A stretch of 64,000 nucleotides of DNA from Odiellus spinosus (Eukaryota; Arthropoda; Arachnida; Opiliones; Phalangiidae), in assembly GCA_963920705.1 (NCBI GenBank), contig OY987237.1, positions 14,228,601 to 14,292,600 on the forward strand, given 5' to 3'. The position numbers were made by a program, and so were the translations under genes. Below the pieces are notes generated by a model. It did not search any database, had not been told where the DNA came from, and saw only the letters and a list, made by a program, of their open reading frames with translations. Positions 5,058 through 60,292 of the stretch are shown here, one piece after another (position 1 is the stretch's first letter; each line of letters starts with the position of its first letter).

Positions 5058-6481
5058 AGAAGTTTTTTGTTTGCTTGAGCCTGAGGCAATATTAAATAAA
5101 AAAAATGTAAGATCATGTATTTTTTATACTAAAATTACTTTGAGAATCCTGCTGATTTATAATTATGGATTTAATATATATCTATTGAAGTTATTTGGGG
5201 GGAGGGGGGGTGTCTACAAGTAGCAGAAATGGTCAGACCCAAATTTAAAGGATTGAGAAAACCAACAAGGCTTTTTCTTTACAGAACATACCAATAATTT
5301 TGAGGGACCCCCAAAATAAACCGGTAGTAAAATTATGGTAAACCTATTCATTTTAGCCTTGTGGACCCAATAAGAGGGATTGTTATAATGGTCAAAATCA
5401 AATGGCTGGTGAACCTTAATTAGTTTGAGGTCAGAAACTAGTCAGTCGTAAACAAAGGGGCGCCGATTAGGGGAGTAACTTTATATTATCTGAGATACTT
5501 GAGTTTAATTACCAAACTCCCTCGAACACCCCACCAAGAAATTGATCCACTTTCTACCTTGCTGAACTGGTTTACAAATACTTCTTTAAGATAAACATTT
5601 AAACACGATTTCCAGTCTGTGAACAAAACTAACTTGTTCTTACTCGTAAAGAATTGGGTCATGGCATACATAAAATTCCTTTAGAAAATTTACAAATATT
5701 TTAAAAATCCAACTGGTCTATCATTAGACACGTGGATTTTTTTCCCCCCAAAAAAGATTATATTTCCCCCTCCTATTTTAATTTTTTTCCTTAAATCCCT
5801 GGGGATTGGTTAACGGGAATTTAAACCCCCCAATGAAAGTTAAAAGTTAACTTTCACAGTTATATATTTTACGTCCTGCGCCCGGGGTCTCATTCCACGT
5901 TGGCCAGACTTAATTAAGCGGTAAAAAGTAAGTTTCGCGAGGATAAACGCAATGTACGTCAGTATCCACAGATATTTAAGTCTCAGATTAACTACCTTGA
6001 AATTATTGGACTTAATTTCCCACCCTTACTTTATTTGATAGCTTAGTTACTCTTGATAACAAATATATTCCTGTCATATCTAGAGACTGAGTTGTTTGGG
6101 GGGAGGGGGGTAGAATTATCCCAGGGTTAGACAAACGGGAGATAATAGCTTAAAAGCTTCATGACTAAATCTTTCATTTCTATCTTAATCATTCATAGCG
6201 TAAGTCATAACATGGATATTTATATGAAATTTTGAAATCATTTTCGTTTTAGTGATATTGTAATTTCACGCATTATCTGTTCGCGTCAAAACGTTGATAG
6301 CTTTAATTATATCGTAACTTTTAATAGATTTGTTTAGCAAATATAAGCTTTAAATTCGTTTATCTTAATGATCTCATATTCGATAGGTGCAGATAAAGAA
6401 AATTTGCGTAGTATAAATATCTGGACTAAATTATAATAATTTTTCTCTTCCGTTTCATTTTAGTTCGGTGTCTGACATAAA

Positions 6482-13977
<7,496 letters not shown>

Positions 13978-34300: not shown

Positions 34301-36395
34301 TTTTGTCCGACTCATTTTTGAATGTTTTTTCTATTTATTTAATAGTTTGACGGTTGTACGAAAGCGTTTTCTCGATTGGAAAATCTCAAAATCCACCTGA
34401 GATCTCATACGGGCGAAAGACCATACGCCTGTCAGTTCCCATCTTGCACCAAAGCTTTCAGTAACTCATCCGACAGAGCGAAACATCAGAGAACCCATCA
34501 AGATACGGTAAAAAACTAATTCGTCAAACTTCTATAGGCATATTCTTGGTGGATTTTATCAAGAAGGATCAGACAAGGAGAGGAAAAGTGGGGACGGCGC
34601 AGTTCCTATTGCGTCGGCCTAAACTCCCACTCTGGGAGAACGGGGGTAGAGATGTTTCGTGGTAAAATGTTGTCACGTGGGTAAAACGGATCCTTTATCA
34701 GCTTCGTAGCCAACGACGCTAGTGACCACGTGACAACAATTTACCTCGAGAATTTCCTATCCCCCTTTCCACCCGAGTGGGAGGTTGGCTCTTCTCTCTC
34801 TAACTCAACGCAGCCCTTCTTTTCCTCTCCTTGTCTGATCCTTCTTGATTTTATCTAGGAGTACTAAAAACCCACCATTCCACTTAAAGGGAAAATGAAA
34901 CCTAACAACGACTGGTTTTTTTTTATCGATTCTTTATCGTTTAAATAGGCACCCCTTATGAGAGAAAGGGGTTGGTAGGTTTTTATTTTATACTTCTTTT
35001 TATGGGCAACGAAATTAATACGAGTAATATTCAACTTGAATTAAATGTCTTAATTGAAAATTCCCATGGTTATAAAAAAGGTCATTTAAATAGTTTCGCC
35101 TCATTTAAGAACTAAAGAGCTTCTTTTACACGTTTTTCCTAGGCGTAACTTTTTTTGTTCATTCTTTCCGCCTGTCTATTTCTCGGTGCATTTTTCCTTG
35201 TCTTTGCGATTCATCTTTGGCGGATTCCAGAAACCATACGCGTGCCAAATACCGGGATGCACGAAGCGCTACACGGATCCCAGCTCACTCAGAAAACACG
35301 TTAAAAATCACACGACCAAAACGGACCAAGCCAAAAAGAAGGTACACGCGATTTACGAGAAAGTCGAGTTCGAGGAAAAAAAACGAAAAATAGATTCCAA
35401 GCTGAGATTTCATAGCGCACGAAGTTAGAATAAGTTGAATTAGGATCCTCATTCCTCTCATATGTCACGAGTTAGTTAATCCCGAAGTAGCTCATCAGTC
35501 AATTTCCTCGGACATGACGCCTCTTTCGAGTTGCTCAGTATTGCTTCAAGTTACTTATTTATTCGACAGCTAAGAGGTGACCTTAACGAACCAGTGGACA
35601 CGGATCTGTTGAGCAAATGTCTGACCATCCAAGCGATTCGACCCAATCACCCCATTTTACAACAAGGAGATAGAGAGGATAGTTACGCGACGCACGATTT
35701 TATAATGACGCACGACAGCGGCTTAGGAAGATCGCCAGCCCATAACTCGCAACACTCGAATTTCAATTCCGGCGGATACTACTCCAGTAAGTGTCATTAA
35801 AGGTCAAATGTCCCAATATATAGGTTAACTTATCAAGAATATAAATTTCTTATAGATGGTATGTCGTTTTCAAATACGATGTCACCTGGAAGTCATCAAA
35901 GCAGTCCCCAAACACTACGCGACATAGCTGAAAGGTGTGTTTTAAAAAATGAGTTCTTTCCCCATTATTTACGATGGCAAAACGGAAATACTAATAGTTG
36001 ATTGAAAAACCTATTTTACGAACAATTAGCAATGAACCTGTTGATACCCTCATCTCCATACTCCAAGACACGAACCAATCAAAACTAAGTCTACCACCGA
36101 TTAGCCAATCAAATAGAAGAAGTCCATCTATTAAACCCCTGGAGAATAGTAGATCCGCATCTTCGAGATCCAATATTGGTAAGTTTCATCCCGTACAACT
36201 CAAAAACGTTTACAAACGATAACGTTCCATAAAACTATAAATTTTCCAGGTCAGTTACCTCCGTTAAACCGAAACCCAGTCTCACCCGGGTTACCATGGA
36301 GCCCTGGTACCAATCTTACGTTTCCAACGTTCCAGGATTCTTTCTCTAACAAATATGGCATAATCTTGGAGGACTACGCCAGACCAGGAGGGTAA
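19303..36395 (+). CDS. Glis: GLIS-family C2H2 zinc-finger transcription factor (11 coding exons)
   Basis: Nuclear Gli-similar factor; relatives are vertebrate GLIS1/GLIS3 and, more distantly, Drosophila lame duck. Exons: 19303-19366, 19748-20200, 29845-30881, 31006-31306, 31442-31701, 34346-34507, 35231-35341, 35570-35786, 35856-35934, 36030-36178 and 36250-36395; phases join to give about 991 residues. Five fingers: finger 1 CWWIDC...[11 protein letters not shown], finger 2 CFWQGC...[10 protein letters not shown], finger 3 CSFDGC...[11 protein letters not shown] (split by an intron after CS), finger 4 CQFPSC...[10 protein letters not shown] and finger 5 CQIPGC...[10 protein letters not shown], with GLIS-type linkers. 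After them KKK joins [19 protein letters not shown], like the GLIS3 segment following its fingers. The N-terminal 600 residues are Ser/Pro-rich and low-complexity. The C terminus is uncertain: the TAA at 36393 overlaps a good splice donor (GG then GTAAGA). The 36030 acceptor was chosen because it is the one that keeps phase. Confidence 0.94.
23303..23713. repeat. Fold-back element with perfect 41-base ends
   Basis: The arms at 23303-23343 and 23673-23713 are exact reverse complements. Each carries its own hairpin (CCCCCTTCGGGGGG) next to TATATAATAA. Weaker pairing continues inward (ACGAACAACAAG with CTTGTTGTTCGT). About 330 bases lie between, with no ORF of note. The perfect arms imply a recent or conserved structure. 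Confidence 0.8.
24810..25248. repeat. TTAA-flanked long fold-back MITE, copy 1
   Basis: Starts TTAA then AGGGAGAATGCAACCTAA and ends with the reverse complement plus TTAA. The arms extend almost to the centre, through ATCGATTCCTTATCGTTTA, AATTTAAAACTTACCC and GGTCTAGCGACCAAT. The centre is G+C-rich with CGCG runs. Full copies also at 33353 and 47943, single ends at 34884 and 52765. Confidence 0.85.
33353..33793. repeat. TTAA-flanked long fold-back MITE, copy 2
   Basis: Same family as 24810-25248, in GLIS intron 5, bounded by TTAA on both sides. Very similar to copy 1 in both arms; the central G+C-rich block is in the opposite order, as expected for an element inserted the other way round. 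Confidence 0.85.
34561..34846. repeat. Fold-back MITE (AAGAAGGATCAGA ends), copy 1
   Basis: Lies in GLIS intron 6. Ends AAGAAGGATCAGACAAGG and its complement, flanked directly on both sides by the 9-base repeat GATTTTATC (34552-34560 and 34847-34855), a clear target-site duplication. Interior includes GTTGTCACGTGG and its partner. The second copy is at 56944-57222, reversed. Confidence 0.85.
34884..34948. repeat. Single end of the TTAA fold-back family
   Basis: TTAAAGGGAAAATG, AACCTAACAACGA, TTATCGATTCTTTATCG and TTTAAATAGGC match the outer 65 bases of the element at 24810, then similarity stops at ACCCC. No second arm is visible nearby. Truncated copy in GLIS intron 6. Confidence 0.7.
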
Positions 36396-39584: not shown

Positions 39585-42116
39585 TTAAGGAGTTAGAATC
39601 CTCTCCATGTAAGAATTAACAAACAAATTTGTTGGATCTAATTTCTCTCGTATTTCGCACCATTTCTTCCATTGCGGATAAAGTCTCTCGAAATCTGGTT
39701 TACGAAGTTTGTGAGCCTGAAAAGATATTATAGGTAACTTAAAACTGACACGAAGGAAAAACAAACAGAAAGAGGATTGTCGCATCACCTTGGCCCAATG
39801 CGGCCTTCCACCTGCCTCCATCATTATATTTTCGTAAGCTGCCCAGTATTTTTCGTAGGGAATGGGTACGTTATATGGCCTGTACATGACGATATTAATA
39901 AAACAGGTATCCCTTCCGTAACAAGGGCTAAGATAGATATCGTCTGATTTAACGAATCTTATTTCAACAGCGATATGAGCGTAAACATCGGGATTAGCGT
40001 CGAGCCATTCTTTTAGCGTCATTAACGTTGAGCCAGTTTTGGATCTAAATAAAAATTGAAGTCTTTTCAAAATTGTTTAAAGGGATTCTATACTCTGATG
40101 ACAAGTTATTTTTGATTGATTTGAACTGTTAACTGTAAAAACCATATCAAAACTCTCAGCAAAGGTTTTGTAGTAATTTAGAGTTAATTATTAAAGTCAA
40201 AAACTCGCTAAGCCTAAATCCGTTTCGAATGGAAGCCAAGAATTAGACAAGCTAAACCTAAATCCATACGGAATCAAAGTCACAAACTAGGCCCGCTAAG
40301 CCTAAATCCAGAGTATAGTATCCCTTTAAAGAATTAGATTTCAAAATGATTAGATTATACCTGTCAATGGCCCATTCTGTCACGTATTGTTTAAACCTAC
40401 ATTCCAAACTCAAAACTTTATAACTCTCTCCGACGTATCTTTTAGGTTTAGAGTAAAGTAATCTGTACATTAGTCTATTCACGACTGGCGTAAACCCAGG
40501 AATCATAGTTCTGTAAATAAAAATCAAGATTTTGAGAGGAGATCTCTGTTCATTTTGATATCGATAATCAATTTCGAAGTTTTGAGTCAAAATAACCGAT
40601 ATTCTTGCCGTCTAACATTTAAATTTTGCGTTAAAATCTATTGAGAAGTGACATAAAAAGCAAAAATATCAGTTTTTGACGGTAATCTGTTAAACCTAGA
40701 TATTGATATCCATTAAATTACGATATCGGCGAAAAAGTAACATACCCTAACCAATATCCAAACTCTAAAGCGTAGTAACCGATTGCGTAGTTCCAAAACC
40801 AATTTGAACATGTTTCTAAGGTGGAGTATTTTGTCACAGGCTTAAATTTTAAGTTTCCAAATTGCATAGAAAAAATTTATTAGACTTCATTCTGCCTTTA
40901 AAATAATTTTGTCACAAGAACTATGGTTAAAATATTATTACCAATGACGTTTTACTGGAGTGTATGACAACCACATTTTCGGTATGAGGATACCTAAAAT
41001 AGAATAGTAAAAATTAGAAATGATTATAACGTTTGTAAACTAATTTATTATTTCAAAACTTACCAGTGAAATAGGAAGTATTCTGATGATTTGTAATGAA
41101 CATCTAAATGTTCGATAACATCCTTTAAACTAGCCGGATAATCGTTTCTCAAGAGGTTAAACTTTGGTTCGCATTGATACGTTATACTAATGATAACTCC
41201 GATGGCCCCTAAATTATCAGAAACAATTTAATCCTCAAAAAATGTACTGTATATCGTTAATATACCTAATCCGCAAATTGTGGAAAGATATAATTCTTGA
41301 TTTTCCGTACGCGAACAAGTTTTAACTTCGCCCGATGCTGTCATAAGCTCTAATTCAGTAACCTTAAAATAGTCGACTAATTAATTACTTAAAAGTGATC
41401 ATATTGTAGCTTTATTCTTACAAAAGTCCCCATATGTCCAAAATTTGAGCCACTACCGTGGGTTCCCGTTGATATGGCCCCTGCTAACGTTATCTCTGAT
41501 ACAGACCCTAGACTTTATAAAAAAATATTGGGAATAAACTGAGGTTATGCTAAAATACTAAAACTATACGAAATATACATAGTTAAATTGAGGTTATGTT
41601 CAGGCAGCGTCTCGTGTAGTGCACTAACTTTTACTCCACCTCCTACTTTAACGGAGCAATTCATCGTATCAACCTATGAATTTTTCACATTTACGATCAA
41701 CAACCTTCATAGATTTTACGTACGTCATTACTTACATTTATTTGGTCAAAATGTTGTAAACTAATAAGGTACTCATTACAACAAGCCAAATCCGAAGGTG
41801 AATGCCCACATCCCACAACACGAACTCGTTTCCCATCATTGTTTGCAAAGGCTAGAATCTTGGTTAAAATTTAAACTTGGATGCGTGAAATTAATCAAAC
41901 TTTTTGTATCATCGAGACATACCTGTCTCAGTTCGTTAGGTGTTTTAGGTGCAAAATAAAGCTCAGGCGAGCATGTGAACGTCTTCGACCAGTTATTAAA
42001 AATCACACCAGGTATACCTAGGCCCTACAAAAATAAATTTTAATTTTACTTTTTATTCACAATTTACTATTAAAAAATGAGGGAAAAATTGTTTTCGCAC
42101 ACACCGTTACGTTCAT
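39585..42116 (-). CDS. GULO: L-gulonolactone oxidase (12 coding exons)
   Basis: FAD enzyme that oxidises L-gulono-1,4-lactone with O2, the last step of ascorbate synthesis, on the ER membrane in vertebrates. Exons on the minus strand, 5' to 3': 42116-42111, 42024-41923, 41858-41736, 41673-41579, 41512-41422, 41362-41266, 41208-41064, 40993-40942, 40840-40746, 40510-40361, 40044-39789 and 39716-39585. Every junction is GT/AG, phases agree, and the 447-residue product matches vertebrate GULO (440) throughout. FAD domain: FNNWSKTFTCSPELYF, then VVGCGHSPSD whose His (about residue 55) aligns with the FAD-linked His of GULO; LGSVSEITLAG and STGTHGSG follow. C-terminal domain: CSNWFWNYAIGYYALEF, LECRFKQYVTEWAIDR, AVEIRFVKSDDIYLSPC, IVMYRPY, GGRPHWAKAH, REKLDPTNLFVNSY. 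Introns are 62-95 bases in several places. The two-codon first exon is the least certain part. Confidence 0.95.
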
Positions 42117-52800: not shown

Positions 52801-55800
52801 TTGTCGATTCCTTATCTTTTAAATAGGCCTAATTAGATGAAAAGTTAATTATTAATTTTCATAAATAATTTCAACCGGTAAATTCTAAATTATTGCTTAT
52901 TAGGATCAAGGACCTCACCTTTTTCTACTTTTAAAACTTTTCAAGGTTAGGTATAAGCTTAAGATTTTTTTTTTGTTTTTCGTTTCGAAAGTTGAAACTG
53001 AAGGTGGAAAAAGTTTAAAGAATGTCACCCACAACTTCGAAGTGGGTGTCTGTGTATCGGTAGTTTTTTTTTTTTCTCATTTTTTTTTTGCATCGAATAA
53101 TTTGGGCATAAAGATAAAAACCATTTTTATTTTTTATTTTAAATTTAAACTAGTATTTTTTACGAGATTAAGAAGGGCGCATGGTGTTATATATTTGCAT
53201 TATAACCTTCAAAAGGTACAAATTTCACATAGAAAAAAAACGGGATTTCTATGAAAATTCAAGTTCATTCCAAGATTAAATATAAATATTTCTAGATTTG
53301 ATTAATATATATTTTTTTTTAAATTAATGTCATCCACCTTTTATCTTAATACTTGAAAAAGGTATAAAAATGTAATAAGTCAAAGTTCAAGTTTAAAATC
53401 ATGTTGACCTCAAGAGAAATTCAGCTTTTGAACCATTTAAGCTTGGAAGAGAGAGAATCACCAGATTTTAGCACCCACTTACCTCAAGTTACGTGTCTTT
53501 TCTGGTTTTCTGGATTAGAAAAACTTTATTTGAATTTACTTGCAAAATTACGAGGCTGTGAATAGATAAATAATATATTTTACCTGTAGGAACCCATACC
53601 GGTTTTTAAAAAATTTCATAAGATTAACCAAAATCTTTATGAATTTCCTTATATTTCTCAAAAATTTAAGCAAACTTTTAATTTTTTACCAAGCTACATC
53701 TTTTAAACAGTTTTATTTTCTTCAAATATCTCTTTAACCCAGGTTGTTCTGATTATTTTCATAATTCAACACACATTTACAAAGCTAAGAATAAAATTGG
53801 CTGAGATGATATATATATTAATTAATTAACGGGGCCAGTGATTATGAAAATACCAGATCCATATGATCCTATTCTTTTTTTTTAATTTCGAATAAATTAA
53901 TAACCAGGTCCCAGAGACAAATAAACCCAGTTTTGAAATAGTTAATCTGGTTTTGGACCAATAAACTACTGTGTTGTTTCTCGGACTGTTTCCTTTTGTT
54001 TCTTGATGCTTAAGACCGTATTTATGGACTAAATCTTCATGTGGTCTTTGTTATCAAGAGACGAATTTAAAATTGGATCATTTAAGCCTACCTCTGGTAT
54101 TCATAAACGTCCTCTAACGGCAAACAGTGCAGGCAAAAGTATTAACTAACAAAATCACATACGAAATTGGTTTAAATTTACCCGGCGTTTTCTAACAATG
54201 TTAATCATCTTATATTTACTTAAAACTTTGTCGAGTTAAGTGTTTTCTAAAAGATATTTCTCGAAACGCGTTCCAGCCCTATTTTGCGAAAATGACACGA
54301 CTTTATGGTGAAAGTTTAATTTTTACTTAACCACGAAGGCCAGTGGTAGATTTCGTCATTTTAATATATATATATACGATGCATGGTCGTCGCCCTATTG
54401 GCCTTCAAAATTAATGTTATACAGAGATTCACTCTTTATGGCAATACGCCCGATCTCGTAATAATCTTAAATACGTCATATAGCTTGAAGAAGTCATGAA
54501 AATATTTTAGAAAAAAAAAAATATATATATATATATAAAAATTCCCTCATTTGCGTGGGCGTGGCTTTTTGATAATGATTATAAATATAAGGTAGTAACA
54601 GGAATTCACATTTTTATATATAAGTATATTTAAATTTTAAAATAAGATTTAGTATTATTTACTAAATTATTTTTGAATTTGTAAAAAAATTTGAAAATTA
54701 AATTAGAAATAAATTTGCTCATTAGGATTCGGTATACAGCATTGTGCCCCGTTGTTAAATAAGTTTCTTTAAATTAAAAAAAATGTTTACTTCACCGAAA
54801 TTTAATTTACATATTTAATAAATTCGTATTTAATGTGTAAAGATTTGTAATATAAATTAGCTCACGTAGATTCGTTACAACATTGGTATTTATTTTTAAA
54901 TATTAAAATTAAATTAATTTTTAATAGACGAAACATAATTTGCATATTAAACAAATTGGTATTAATTTGTTTTTATAAAAATGTTAATCCAGTTTAATCC
55001 CAAAATAATCTGATTTGGGTCCACTTGATCGACTCCCAAATGATCGACAAGAGGTCCACTTGATCGACACCCAAATGATCGACTCACAATTGATCGACTC
55101 CCAAATGATCGACAAAGGGTCCACTTGATCGAATCCCAAACGATCGACAAAGGGATCAAATGATTGATGCCTAATCATAAATTCCCGACAACAAAGGGTG
55201 CATTTGATCGTTTCCCAATTGGTCAACTTCGTAATAACGATTATAAATAGATTAACCAACCTAACCTAACCCAAACCTGACCTAACCTAACCTAACATAA
55301 CCTAACCTAACCTGACCTATACTCGTTACTCGCTAAAAAACTGGGCTGTCGATCAATTGGAATGGCTTGTCGATCAAATGGGAGTCGATCAAACGGTAGT
55401 CGATCAAACGGACTCCTTGTCGATCAATTGGAAGTCGAGCAAATGAACCTAAGCCAAATGGATTCTAGTGTACTGCCAATCCATATCTATTAAAAATATA
55501 GTATACATTACAGTTAAAATTAAATTAGATGCGTTTCAATATATACCATTAAAGCATTTATTGAAAGCAAAAGTGAAACTGCACTGGTATATTTTTATAA
55601 CACACAATACCATTTTTATTTAGTAACAAAATATTGATATTCATAAATTTATTTAATTTTTTTTTTAACCTTTTATCATTGTTTATTTATTTAGGTTGCG
55701 CGGGTGGATACATCACGTTCGAGTTGGTGACTGGTTTCGTCTATACGGCCCCTTCGGACACGATGCGTCTCCTTCCGGGAACTCTCCAATTGACCGAGTG

Positions 55801-58800
55801 CTTGTCTAGTTGTAGGAAGAACAGTTCCTGTCAATCGGTCAACTTTGAAACCGGACTGTGCGTCCTTTTCAGTTCCAGCGCTACCGAGAGGCCCGGAGCT
55901 CTCACGTCCTCGCAGTTTCCTGTGTTCACTATCTACGCTCAGAAACTCTGTCTCCTAGGTAATTATTTCCCTTAAGTTTAATGATGGGGAGGGGCTTAAT
56001 TAATTATGTCGCGTACTAATTAGCTACCCGTGTTTACTTTTTTCGTGTCCGCCGTAATACAGGATTTGAATTTGTTTTAGCAAATTTTTTTTACCCTTTT
56101 AATCTACATTCAAACCTTTTCCTTTTTCCTGTAAATTAGGAGTAGTAAAACCCACCACCCCTAGTAAGTATCAAAAACACAACAAAAAAAAAAAACCCCG
56201 GTCAAAATCAATCAAATACATCAAATAATACCTTATTGGCGCCCCATATATGGAAATCTAACATGTCGAAATCTGATTTTATTTTGGCAAAACTGATTAA
56301 CGAATTGGTATCAATTCGATTTAATGGAAATAGGACCCCGAAATAAACCGAAATTTATCTTTTAACGAGAAAAAAACCTAGTCACAAAGAATTTCACTTC
56401 TTTAAAATGATGTAAATCCATAGAATCTTAGCCTCCTTATGAAGGGATGAGCTCCTCCGGGTGTAACACGATGTGTAAATTACGTCACATATTACGTTTT
56501 TAACCGAGTAATGGTTTATGATCAAGAAATCCGGGCCCAAACAACATTATGGTTTATATTTTCAGCAAAACCTGAAAACCGAATTTTTTTAATGATAATA
56601 ATAATAATAATAAGCCAAACAGTGAACCTAGTAATTTTCAATCTTCTAAACTCAAACAAATACTTCCCCCTGAAATCATTCCTTTACCACGATTTCTCGA
56701 ACAACCAAAAAACAAAAAAAAAAAAACTAAACAAAAGATATTCCAAAACACACGAAAACGAAAGTTAAAATGGGTTTAGCCTAAAGAAATACGAAATATA
56801 GTGAAAGTTATTCTTCCTTAACTGCGTTATTACGTAAAGAAAATCGTGCCGTACGGAATGGAATTGTTATCTAAACTATAGTTAGATAACACAACGTATA
56901 ACGCTAGCTGCAAACCTATTCGTAAGAATTACAATTATGAACCAAGAAGGATCAGATAAGGAGAGGAAATGTGGGGCTGCGTTGAGTTAGAGAGAGAAGA
57001 GCCAACCTCCCACTCGGGTGGAAAGGGGGGATAGGAAATTCTCGAGGTAAACTGTTGTCACGTGGTCGCTAGCTAGCGTGTCTCATAAAGGATCCGTTTT
57101 ACCCACGTGACAACAATTTACCACGAAGCCTCTCTACCCCCGTTCTCCCAGAGTGGGAGTTTAGGCCGACGCAGTAGGAGCCGCGCCGTTCCCACTTTTC
57201 CTCTCCTTATCTGATCCTTCTTGTATGAACAAAAGTTCATAACTTATATCAGAAAGATAATTTCCTCGCCGATACCGTAAAGAGTAAGATGCGCGCAGCC
57301 GTCGCAGATGTATTTCGAGCATGCGCGTGCGCAAATCTAGCCAGAGGAGACGCGTATACATTAATTTGCGCGCGAATGTTATAAGCTAAATATTTCGCGC
57401 GTTTTTTCCCCTTTCTTTTGTATTGATTTTTTCTTGAAACGCCAGTTAATTCACAAGCTACTTACAGTGTGCATCCGGCCCTTAACGCTGTCAGCACGCG
57501 TAACACTCTGTCGTATTCTAACTGTATAAACACAATAACGAAATAACGAAGCTCTGAAAACACTTAACTAGTGTTCTCAAGCAGTTAACTACCTACAATC
57601 GAGTTCTTGGCAAACTGATATTGCTTCTTGGGCGAAAGAAGGTAGCTTTAAACTATACGAAGATAAAAGATTTCTCAGGTGAGTTGAAGAAACTCCTCGT
57701 GCAAAACTCGAGATCGCCTTCTATTGTACTAATTACGGTTCAATGGATCAACTTTCAAGTTAGCCATCTCCACCCTTTTTAAAGCTTACAATCTTATATA
57801 TTTCGTCCACTGACTTAGAAACAACGGAGTTCAATTCGAGAAAGAAGAGATTTAGTGTTTAGTCAATTCCACTTTAATTATCTAATTATAAAGTTGTTTT
57901 AAGCCCATTCTTCACGGTCTTTTAGGCAACCGTCTGGTAGCATTTTTAACATGAACTCTTATAGCCCACAAAGGGGGCAGGGGTATCAGTGGAGATTAAA
58001 GAAGTTTGCCAATTGTATTGCAAAGGAAATTCGCAAACCTCGCGTAATTACGACTTAGTTTTCCCAAATTAATTTTGCAAACCAAATTTGGCAACTTTGT
58101 TCAACTTTCCATTCACCACCGAGCAATAGTTTATTCAAATTATTTTTGCAAACCAAAACTGCGTAAATCTTAGTTTTTGATTTTTGCGAGACTTGGCCTT
58201 TAAAGTTTTCCGTGTCACTGGCCACTGTGGACCCACAACGCCTATTCTTTCGTTGCGCGATATTCATCTATCTGTAATTTTGCGTGTGTCTTGGTTGAAA
58301 AAAATGATAGAGTAATCGTGATCGTACTTGAAACGAAACTAGCCGGAAGGTATTATTAAGGAAAATGGAAAATAATAATAAAACTATTTCAATTTGAAGG
58401 ACTGACGATTATTTGGTTCGAAAAGAATAGGAAAAAATGTTCTTCGTCAAACTTTTATTTCGGAAAACAATTTATATTGCATAAAACAGTTCAAAGTTCA
58501 TGGGATATCGAACGATTCTCTGTATTAATCATTTTATTTTTAATTTTAAGTTTGATAACCAATGGTTAAGTCGTTGCTCAGAACGATACCTAAACATTTT
58601 AAGATAAATCTGCAAGTTCAAGGAGTTATTTGAGAATTGTAAATATGAACTGTCTTGGCCAATACTACAAATTCGCCAGATACTTTTGTCTTTTGAACAT
58701 TAATTTTTCCTCAGGTGTGCAGGGCCTAATCTGGAACATGTATTATTTGAGTGTTAAATTAATTTATAATTTAATTATTATTTTGGGATCATCTGGTTTT

Positions 58801-59926
58801 AGTTTTTATCCAAATTCTTTTCCCATGCTCTCGTTATATATGATTTTATTCGAAGTAGATTATAGAAGTAGATTTTACGATTTTTAGTCACGGGTTAGAG
58901 ATACTAATGTTCAGTTCAACGCGACCTTGTATTATGTTTCTATCTCTTTGGCCCTATTTGTTGAAAGTGTATATAGAGACGGTCATAATGATTACGTCGC
59001 TCGGCGCCGAGTAAACATGTCTGGCACGATTTTACCATTGAAATTCTTTAAGAGTCGTTCCCAGGGAATTTTTAACCCCTTGTACTGAGTTGGTAGGTCA
59101 TCAAGCCGATAAGGCACCCACGAAGAAAAAGATACATCTTCCATTAGAAACGTATTTTACTGACCAAAAAAACGAGTGACCTTAAGTACGTATACTTTAG
59201 GATTAAGACTAACCCACTTTTCAGTACGAAATGGTTATTACAATTAGAATAAAAAATTTAAAGGTAGTTACTTGTCTGTTAACTCCCCAGAAAGCTATGT
59301 ATTTCATTTGGTAATCAGTTTAATTACTTTACTCTTGTTCAACTGTCAATAAGAGTTACCACCAAAATCTGCTTATGTCTGGCAGATTGATTTATAGGAA
59401 CGGAAGCAAACCAATATCATTAATTGCAATTTAATTATTGGCAGAAAGCAATTATCATTGTTAAATTTGGTTATTTTGTTTGGTTATACATTTGTTATTA
59501 AAATATGAATTAATGTTTCGGTTGTTATACAATTAAACCTATAAGGAACCTATTGGTATTATTAAATCCCATCGTTGATAGAGAGAGTCAAATTACCAAA
59601 ACATTAACAATTTATTAACAATATATTTAAATTTTATATTGTTGCAGGAGCCCAAAAGTGTGACAGAGAATGGTTATTTGAGCGCGTGAATGGCTACGAA
59701 CTGAGGGAATTGTCAAAGAAACGTTTCGACCAAGTACCATCTCGCGAGTCGTGTATGGAAATATGTCTGGCCGAGCGAGATTTCTTGTGCAGATCGGCAA
59801 AATTCGATCCCATTACTAGTCAATGCGCCCTCAGCGACAGGGACCGGTATACGGCTGCCGGAAACAGACAATTCGGCCCCGCCGAATCACCCGCGGTACA
59901 ATATCTAGAGAGCAATTGCGTCGACG
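46865..59926 (+). CDS. Secreted PAN/Apple-domain protein, probably cuticular ZP family (5' part)
   Basis: Exons 46865-46958, 55695-55958 and 59648-59926, all joined in phase 1, encode 212 residues; the gene continues past 64000. Exon 1 is a signal peptide (MSSIWTLHF... with core WTILLLIFLC, ending QNVKSEG). Exon 2 is one PAN domain with six Cys, starting CAGGYITFELVTGFVYTAP and ending FTIYAQKLC. Exon 3 is a second PAN domain, six Cys, starting CDREWLFERVNGYELREL and ending LESNCVDG. Signal peptide plus tandem PAN domains, one per exon with symmetrical phase-1 introns, is the layout of the insect apical-matrix proteins neyo/nyobe/morpheyus, trynity and nompA, which end in a ZP domain and shape cuticle or sensory caps. 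The ZP domain is not in the window, so that assignment is inference. A non-ZP PAN protein is possible. Confidence 0.8.
47943..48371. repeat. TTAA fold-back MITE, copy 3 (degenerate)
   Basis: Begins TTAAAGGGAGGGTG. Shares AAATTTAAAACTTGCCC-like, GGATTCATGGAGATCCTGAA, CAATGAACAAAGCCCG, TCTCCACGAGACTT and the TAAGTTTTAAATTTATTT segments with the copies at 24810 and 33353, but the outer arms are eroded and the right terminus is lost after TCACTTGTTTAAT. Confidence 0.75.
49115..49450. repeat. Fold-back MITE (AGAAGCCGATGAAACCC ends), copy 1
   Basis: Both ends carry AGAAGCCGATGAAACCCTCC in inverted orientation; pairing continues through TTTGAAGT, CCTCTCTGTATGGG and CGGAGCGGGAGTTCGTC. Second copy in reverse orientation at 62188-62522. 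The several overlapping open frames here are by-products of the repeat. Confidence 0.85.
52765..52833. repeat. Single end of the TTAA fold-back family
   Basis: TTAAAGGGAGAATGCAACAT, AACAAGTGATTTTTTGTCG, ATTCCTTATC and TTTAAATAGGCCTAAT match the outer 69 bases of the element at 24810; the similarity then ends abruptly. No opposing arm nearby. Confidence 0.7.
55015..55450. repeat. Inverted GATCGAC arrays around a TTAGG telomere-type tract
   Basis: 55020-55215 is a tandem array of units like ACTTGATCGACTCCCAAATG; 55345-55450 carries the same words in reverse complement (GTCGATCAAATGGGAGTC). Between them, 55255-55318 is (CCTAA)n with variants CCTGA and CATAA, the complement of the arthropod telomere repeat TTAGG. 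Low-complexity open frames here are not genes. Confidence 0.8.
56944..57222. repeat. Fold-back MITE (AAGAAGGATCAGA ends), copy 2
   Basis: Reverse-orientation relative of 34561-34846: ends AAGAAGGATCAGATAAGG and complement, interior GGAGGTTGGCTCTT-complement, GTTGTCACGTGG and GGGAGTTTAGGCC segments in opposite order. Flanks share TATGAAC on both sides, consistent with an eroded target duplication. Confidence 0.8.
57322..57333. promoter_or_regulatory. NRF-1/EWG-type binding site
   Basis: TGCGCGTGCGCA; read on the minus strand it is TGCGCACGCGCA, a full match to the NRF-1 consensus YGCGCAYGCGCR. It lies in a short G+C-rich patch in otherwise A+T-rich intron 2 of the PAN/ZP gene. NRF-1 family sites usually mark promoters. 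What it would start is not visible. Confidence 0.4.
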
Positions 59927-60292
59927 GTGAGTAATCTTACAAAGATTTTATTTTATCGTATGATTTCTTAAGGTCTTTCCCGATACACTTCCAAGTTAAG
60001 ATCATTCCCCTTTGCGCGCACGCTTATTTTGTTGGGGATGACGCGACCTTAGCCCGCCCAAAAACCTTTCATTTTCAAGAACTTTTCGTTATTTATTTAA
60101 AAAGAAAAAAAACACTCCTTGGTATTACCTATAGTTATGAAAAGTGAGTTTGTTGGAAACATTGATCCGGGGTCAATCGACTTTCAATCTTACATCCATT
60201 TCCTTTATATTATATTCTTTAAAACGTGTAATGAATAGCCAGCAGAAACCTGATACTGTATCAATTGAGCACCATTACATGAAGGTTGGAAG

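Follow-up and report, generated by a model that had tools for sequence, protein, structure and literature searches.

Several surveys have outlined where L-gulonolactone oxidase (GULO) occurs among arthropods. Henriques et al. 2019 (PMC6582580) describe the gene in Araneae and Acari, consider it likely lost in Mesostigmata, and report it absent from Hexapoda and Crustacea. In insects and Daphnia, none was found by Wheeler et al. 2015 (PMC4396506), and Duque et al. 2022 (PMC9233358) report it in species of Arachnida. Neither “Opiliones” nor “harvestm” occurs in the main texts of PMC6582580 and PMC9233358, and in the genome note on Odiellus spinosus (PMC11503004) the main text contains neither “GULO” nor “ascorb.” Among the titles listed by our literature search, with most subscription journals outside its scope, none was on GULO in Opiliones, and such a report may exist.

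The host of the gene described below, Odiellus spinosus (Opiliones, Phalangiidae), is an arachnid. Because GULO has already been reported from the other arachnid orders Araneae and Acari, its occurrence in a harvestman is expected. An earlier note on this DNA had set the gene against the loss of GULO from winged insects. The absence from insects is indeed reported, but these same sources remove most of the surprise, given that arachnid relatives carry the gene. The harvestman GULO fills a gap and leaves the accepted picture unchanged. Its value is modest: an intact-looking gene from one more arachnid order is of use in placing the loss reported for insects and crustaceans.

The whole stretch of DNA analyzed, called the window, is 64 kb long and corresponds to C15:14228601-14292600 on chromosome 13 (17.2 Mb) of a Hi-C assembly. 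Within it, the GULO gene occupies positions 39585-42116 on the minus strand and comprises 12 exons totaling 1350 nt including the stop codon. The model was built from exons recognized by three-frame reading and joined at GT-AG borders. All 11 introns have such borders, span 57-316 nt, and are AT-rich (27% GC compared to 40% in the exons). The spliced frame runs for 449 codons without an internal stop, whereas the other two frames contain 38 and 37 stops, and at the intron base composition 449 open codons would arise by chance with a probability of about 3e-17. Chance-open frame aside, family similarity settles that this locus is a real gene. According to PMC11505616, the rat and mouse GULO genes likewise have 12 exons.

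All exons lie on the minus strand. Exon 2 (41923..42024, 102 nt) is bounded by GT-AG, is in frame, and aligns to a provisional sequence of the rat enzyme. Exon 3 (41736..41858, 123 nt) encodes GHSPSD with His57, the putative FAD carrier, and exon 5 (41422..41512, 91 nt) encodes the gatekeeper Gly113; exons 4 (41579..41673, 95 nt) and 6 (41266..41362, 97 nt) are placed by the spliced gene model. The ALO domain begins in exon 7 (41064..41208, 145 nt) which is followed by exons 8 (40942..40993, 52 nt) and 9 (SNWFWNYAIGYY; 40746..40840, 95 nt). Exon 10 (40361..40510, 150 nt) is placed by both the gene model and the protein search of the genome, exon 11 (39789..40044, 256 nt) carries Glu348-Arg350 and HWAK at residues 403-406, and exon 12 (39585..39716, 132 nt) contains LDPT and the stop codon TAA. 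Between exons 8 and 9, an in-frame alternative donor at 40956 and an alternative acceptor that moves the start of exon 9 to 40815 provide a second in-frame joint, which yields 436 residues. Neither joint exactly matches the provisional rat sequence; compared to it, the harvestman protein has six extra residues at this joint and three near the N terminus.

The start codon resides in exon 1 (42105..42116, 12 nt), which is the weakest exon and lacks similarity support. Two donors are in phase: ATGAACGTAACG followed by GTGTGT gives 449 residues, and ATGAAC followed by GTAACG, six bases earlier, reduces the exon to 6 nt and gives 447 residues. The sequence is compatible with either donor, leaving the choice ambiguous. 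Thus, the length of 447 residues given in the earlier note stands if the earlier donor is used, and the model adopted here has 449. Whichever donor is used, the ATG at 42116 is the only candidate start when the 500 nt preceding exon 2 are searched for an ATG that opens a phase-0 exon shorter than 90 nt with a GTA or GTG donor. A more distant 5′ exon may also exist. A first exon as small as the one at 42116 is plausible because Henriques et al. 2019 (PMC6582580) describe a first GULO coding exon that perhaps consists of ATG alone. Likeness to the Araneae and Acari genes is by description only in that source, and comprises HWAK and possibly this ATG-only first exon.

Two Pfam domains account for most of the spliced protein: FAD_binding_4 at residues 24-158 (2.4e-27) and ALO at residues 182-445 (7.9e-80). 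The NCBIfam model TIGR01678 (sugar 1,4-lactone oxidase), which we take to cover animal GULO and fungal ALO, gives 462.9 bits, above its cut-off of 396.8. In contrast, TIGR01679 (bacterial FAD-linked oxidoreductase) reaches 267.1, below its cut-off of 292.25, and TIGR01676 (plant GLDH) reaches only 97.7, far below 458.25. Alignment with a provisional rat GULO reference sequence shows 202 identical (46%) and 295 similar residues out of 442. The two proteins share the two-domain layout, the FAD histidine (54 in rat and 57 in the harvestman, where it lies within VGCGHSPSD), the gatekeeper glycine (111 and 113), the Glu-Arg pair, and HWAKAH. We take position 54 to be the published position of the FAD histidine in the rat enzyme. 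The gatekeeper glycine of mouse GULO is placed at 111 in PMC6582580. The provisional rat sequence is supported because its FAD histidine falls at 54 and its gatekeeper glycine at 111.

By these sequence comparisons, the harvestman gene is an animal-type L-gulonolactone oxidase (GULO, EC 1.1.3.8). The earlier note had described an intact, intron-bearing gene whose product resembles vertebrate GULO and carries GHSPSD, HWAKAH, and LDPT. That description is borne out by the 12 exons, the uniform GT-AG borders, the open frame, the family models matched, the identity to the provisional rat sequence, and the presence of all three motifs in the spliced protein (residues 56-61, 403-408, and 432-435, respectively).

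The functional residues are consistent with this assignment: Gly113, the Glu348-Arg350 pair, and HWAK are all kept. Among eight prokaryotic relatives, the FAD histidine and the gatekeeper glycine are present in all, the Glu-Arg pair in five, and HWAK in one (Sinorhizobium), with HWGK in the other seven. These motifs agree with GULO, and because prokaryotic relatives share them they are not by themselves proof of it. HWAK is given as a GULO motif, and HWGK as a feature of more distant proteins, in PMC6582580.

Comparison with PDB structures returned GLDHs (8qnr/8qnc) as the best-scoring matches, with the N-terminal FAD domain aligning best over residues 13-234. In 8qnr, a leucine replaces the FAD histidine and an alanine occupies the gatekeeper position, in contrast to His57 and Gly113 of the harvestman protein. 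An engineered GLDH A113G variant in the PDB carries glycine at the place aligned with harvestman Gly113. According to PMC11505616, alanine at the gatekeeper position goes with dehydrogenases and glycine or proline with oxidases, although with exceptions. Together, His57, Gly113, the contrast with GLDH, and this gatekeeper rule point to a predicted covalently flavinylated oxidase.

Searches of the whole genome with PF04030 (2 matches) and with the full protein (10 matches) hit the GULO locus only. These searches, which work exon by exon on the best candidates and in which exons 1 and 8 gave no match, found no second copy. GULO is therefore single-copy in Odiellus spinosus, as far as found. Elsewhere in the window, plus-strand exons at 9517-9831, 35090-35425, 55601-55975, and 59608-59934 encode, in this order, a UDPGP-family nucleotidyltransferase, presumably UAP1-like by motif, a C2H2 zinc finger whose match scores under the Pfam cut-off, and two PAN domains. 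Pfam matched four of the nine neighboring open reading frames searched and gave no match for five. No Rfam family at the gathering threshold and, by ARAGORN, no tRNA were found in the 64 kb.

Candidate pathway partners reside elsewhere in the genome. All seven matches to PF08450 fall at 24.838-24.848 Mb of C3, where they form two tandem regucalcin-like sets (C3:24838000-24847900); one of the seven has a TAG inside it. Both sets keep residues matching Arg101, Asn103, Asn154, and Asp204 of a provisional human regucalcin sequence, and a match to Glu18 of that sequence is present in one N-terminal exon at 24.8406 Mb. We take these five residues to be catalytic or metal-binding. The N-terminal exon of one regucalcin-like gene was not found at the tandem locus. 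A gap of 5.7 kb separates the N-terminal exon at 24840618 from the one that follows, and this N-terminal exon may be part of the second gene or of a third one. As judged from their sequences, the tandem genes could supply the step before GULO. Thirteen matches to PF00860, the SLC23 transporter family, occur in four places (C6:21.07 Mb, C1:0.83 Mb, C8:16.02 Mb, and C16:13.16 Mb) and represent possible ascorbate or nucleobase transporters. Because these matches exist, dietary uptake of ascorbate is also possible.

We consider it very probable that the locus is the vertically inherited GULO of Odiellus spinosus, found as one copy, whose product yields ascorbate from gulonolactone. Regucalcin would supply L-gulono-1,4-lactone as the substrate. 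GULO, with FAD presumably bound covalently to His57, would then oxidize this lactone with oxygen, which Gly113 as gatekeeper would admit to the flavin, giving L-ascorbate and hydrogen peroxide. We infer that the gene is expressed, that FAD is covalently attached, and that the enzyme produces ascorbate and is located at the endoplasmic reticulum membrane; for substrate, product, and membrane location, the basis is family knowledge. The suggestion of the earlier note that the animal may produce its own ascorbate is a reasonable one. The broader proposal, that vitamin C is synthesized in harvestmen themselves through the route ancestral to animals, with regucalcin acting first and GULO second, seems likely to us, with somewhat less confidence. 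If true, then together with the spiders and the ticks and mites it would make GULO the arachnid rule and place the insect and crustacean loss later, on the branch of those two groups. The locus, known at chromosome level, and its candidate pathway partners are available for assay.

Three other explanations deserve weighing. An intact enzyme might act chiefly on a different aldonolactone, in the manner of fungal ALO, and operate outside ascorbate synthesis, given that Pfam ALO and TIGR01678 are common to animal and fungal enzymes that differ in substrate. We regard this as improbable in view of the HWAK motif, the Glu-Arg pair, and the 46% identity to the provisional rat GULO sequence over 442 residues, and also because regucalcin-like genes with the expected residues are present in the same genome.

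It is still less probable that the gene has recently been silenced and persists as an open frame that is untranscribed or has an impaired start exon. Such a state would accord with a tiny exon 1 that lacks similarity support, and with a frame known from DNA alone. However, neither a premature stop nor a frameshift interrupts the 1350 nt, all splice sites are unbroken, and the functional residues are intact.

A bacterial source was considered in light of the prokaryotic relatives. A search of plasmid records gave 153 matching records, 46 of which cover at least 80% of the query; the best identity among the matches listed is 31%, and all 153 are under 60%. Eight records, hand-picked for spread from the best 25 of the 153, served as the prokaryotic rows of a 10-row tree. 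Its remaining rows are the harvestman protein and the provisional rat GULO, the sole other animal, with fungal, plant, and other arachnid rows left out. The eight belong to the same protein family as the harvestman enzyme (TIGR01679, prokaryotic aldonolactone oxidases) but are only 24-31% identical to it, and the harvestman and rat proteins join at 100/100 against them. Within the reach of these eight rows, the tree appears to count against a bacterial origin. Scans of genome contigs and viral contigs by short peptide patterns confirmed no relative; such scans miss existing prokaryotic relatives, and their silence is no proof of absence. Henriques et al. 2019 (PMC6582580) thought that contamination might account for their Rhipicephalus microplus sequence. 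For the harvestman gene, contamination or a recent acquisition from a gut organism or symbiont is scarcely credible given the 11 GT-AG introns, the position of the gene within a chromosome of 17.2 Mb in a Hi-C assembly, the low identity of the plasmid records, and the tree that joins it to rat. Vertical inheritance of an animal-type GULO is the explanation we favor.

Several further observations come from elsewhere in the assembly. Hemocyanin_M had no match in the genome, but the control likewise matched no genome, and the result is no proof of absence. A miR-965 pattern also gave no match, which is no proof of absence either, and a comparison of arginine kinase with PDB entries did not separate the clades. 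The mitochondrial genome (contig C286, 16,074 bp) has a duplicated non-coding control region, with copies at 6026-6871 and 9056-9902 that share 96.8% identity across 851 bp. The second copy is flanked by trnL2 and trnL1, and trnL1 is separated from rrnL by trnI and trnQ. The gene order has no trnL2 between cox1 and cox2, the placement that is a mark of insects and crustaceans, and an insect or crustacean origin of the DNA was rejected on this ground as well as by the species identity; weighing Mesostigmata and Myriapoda from the same gene order gave no result. Finally, C17 carries cox1-like stretches at 1.11, 2.96, 3.13, 4.24, and 4.38-4.39 Mb, some with TAG besides TGA, which resemble mitochondrial DNA copied into the nucleus.
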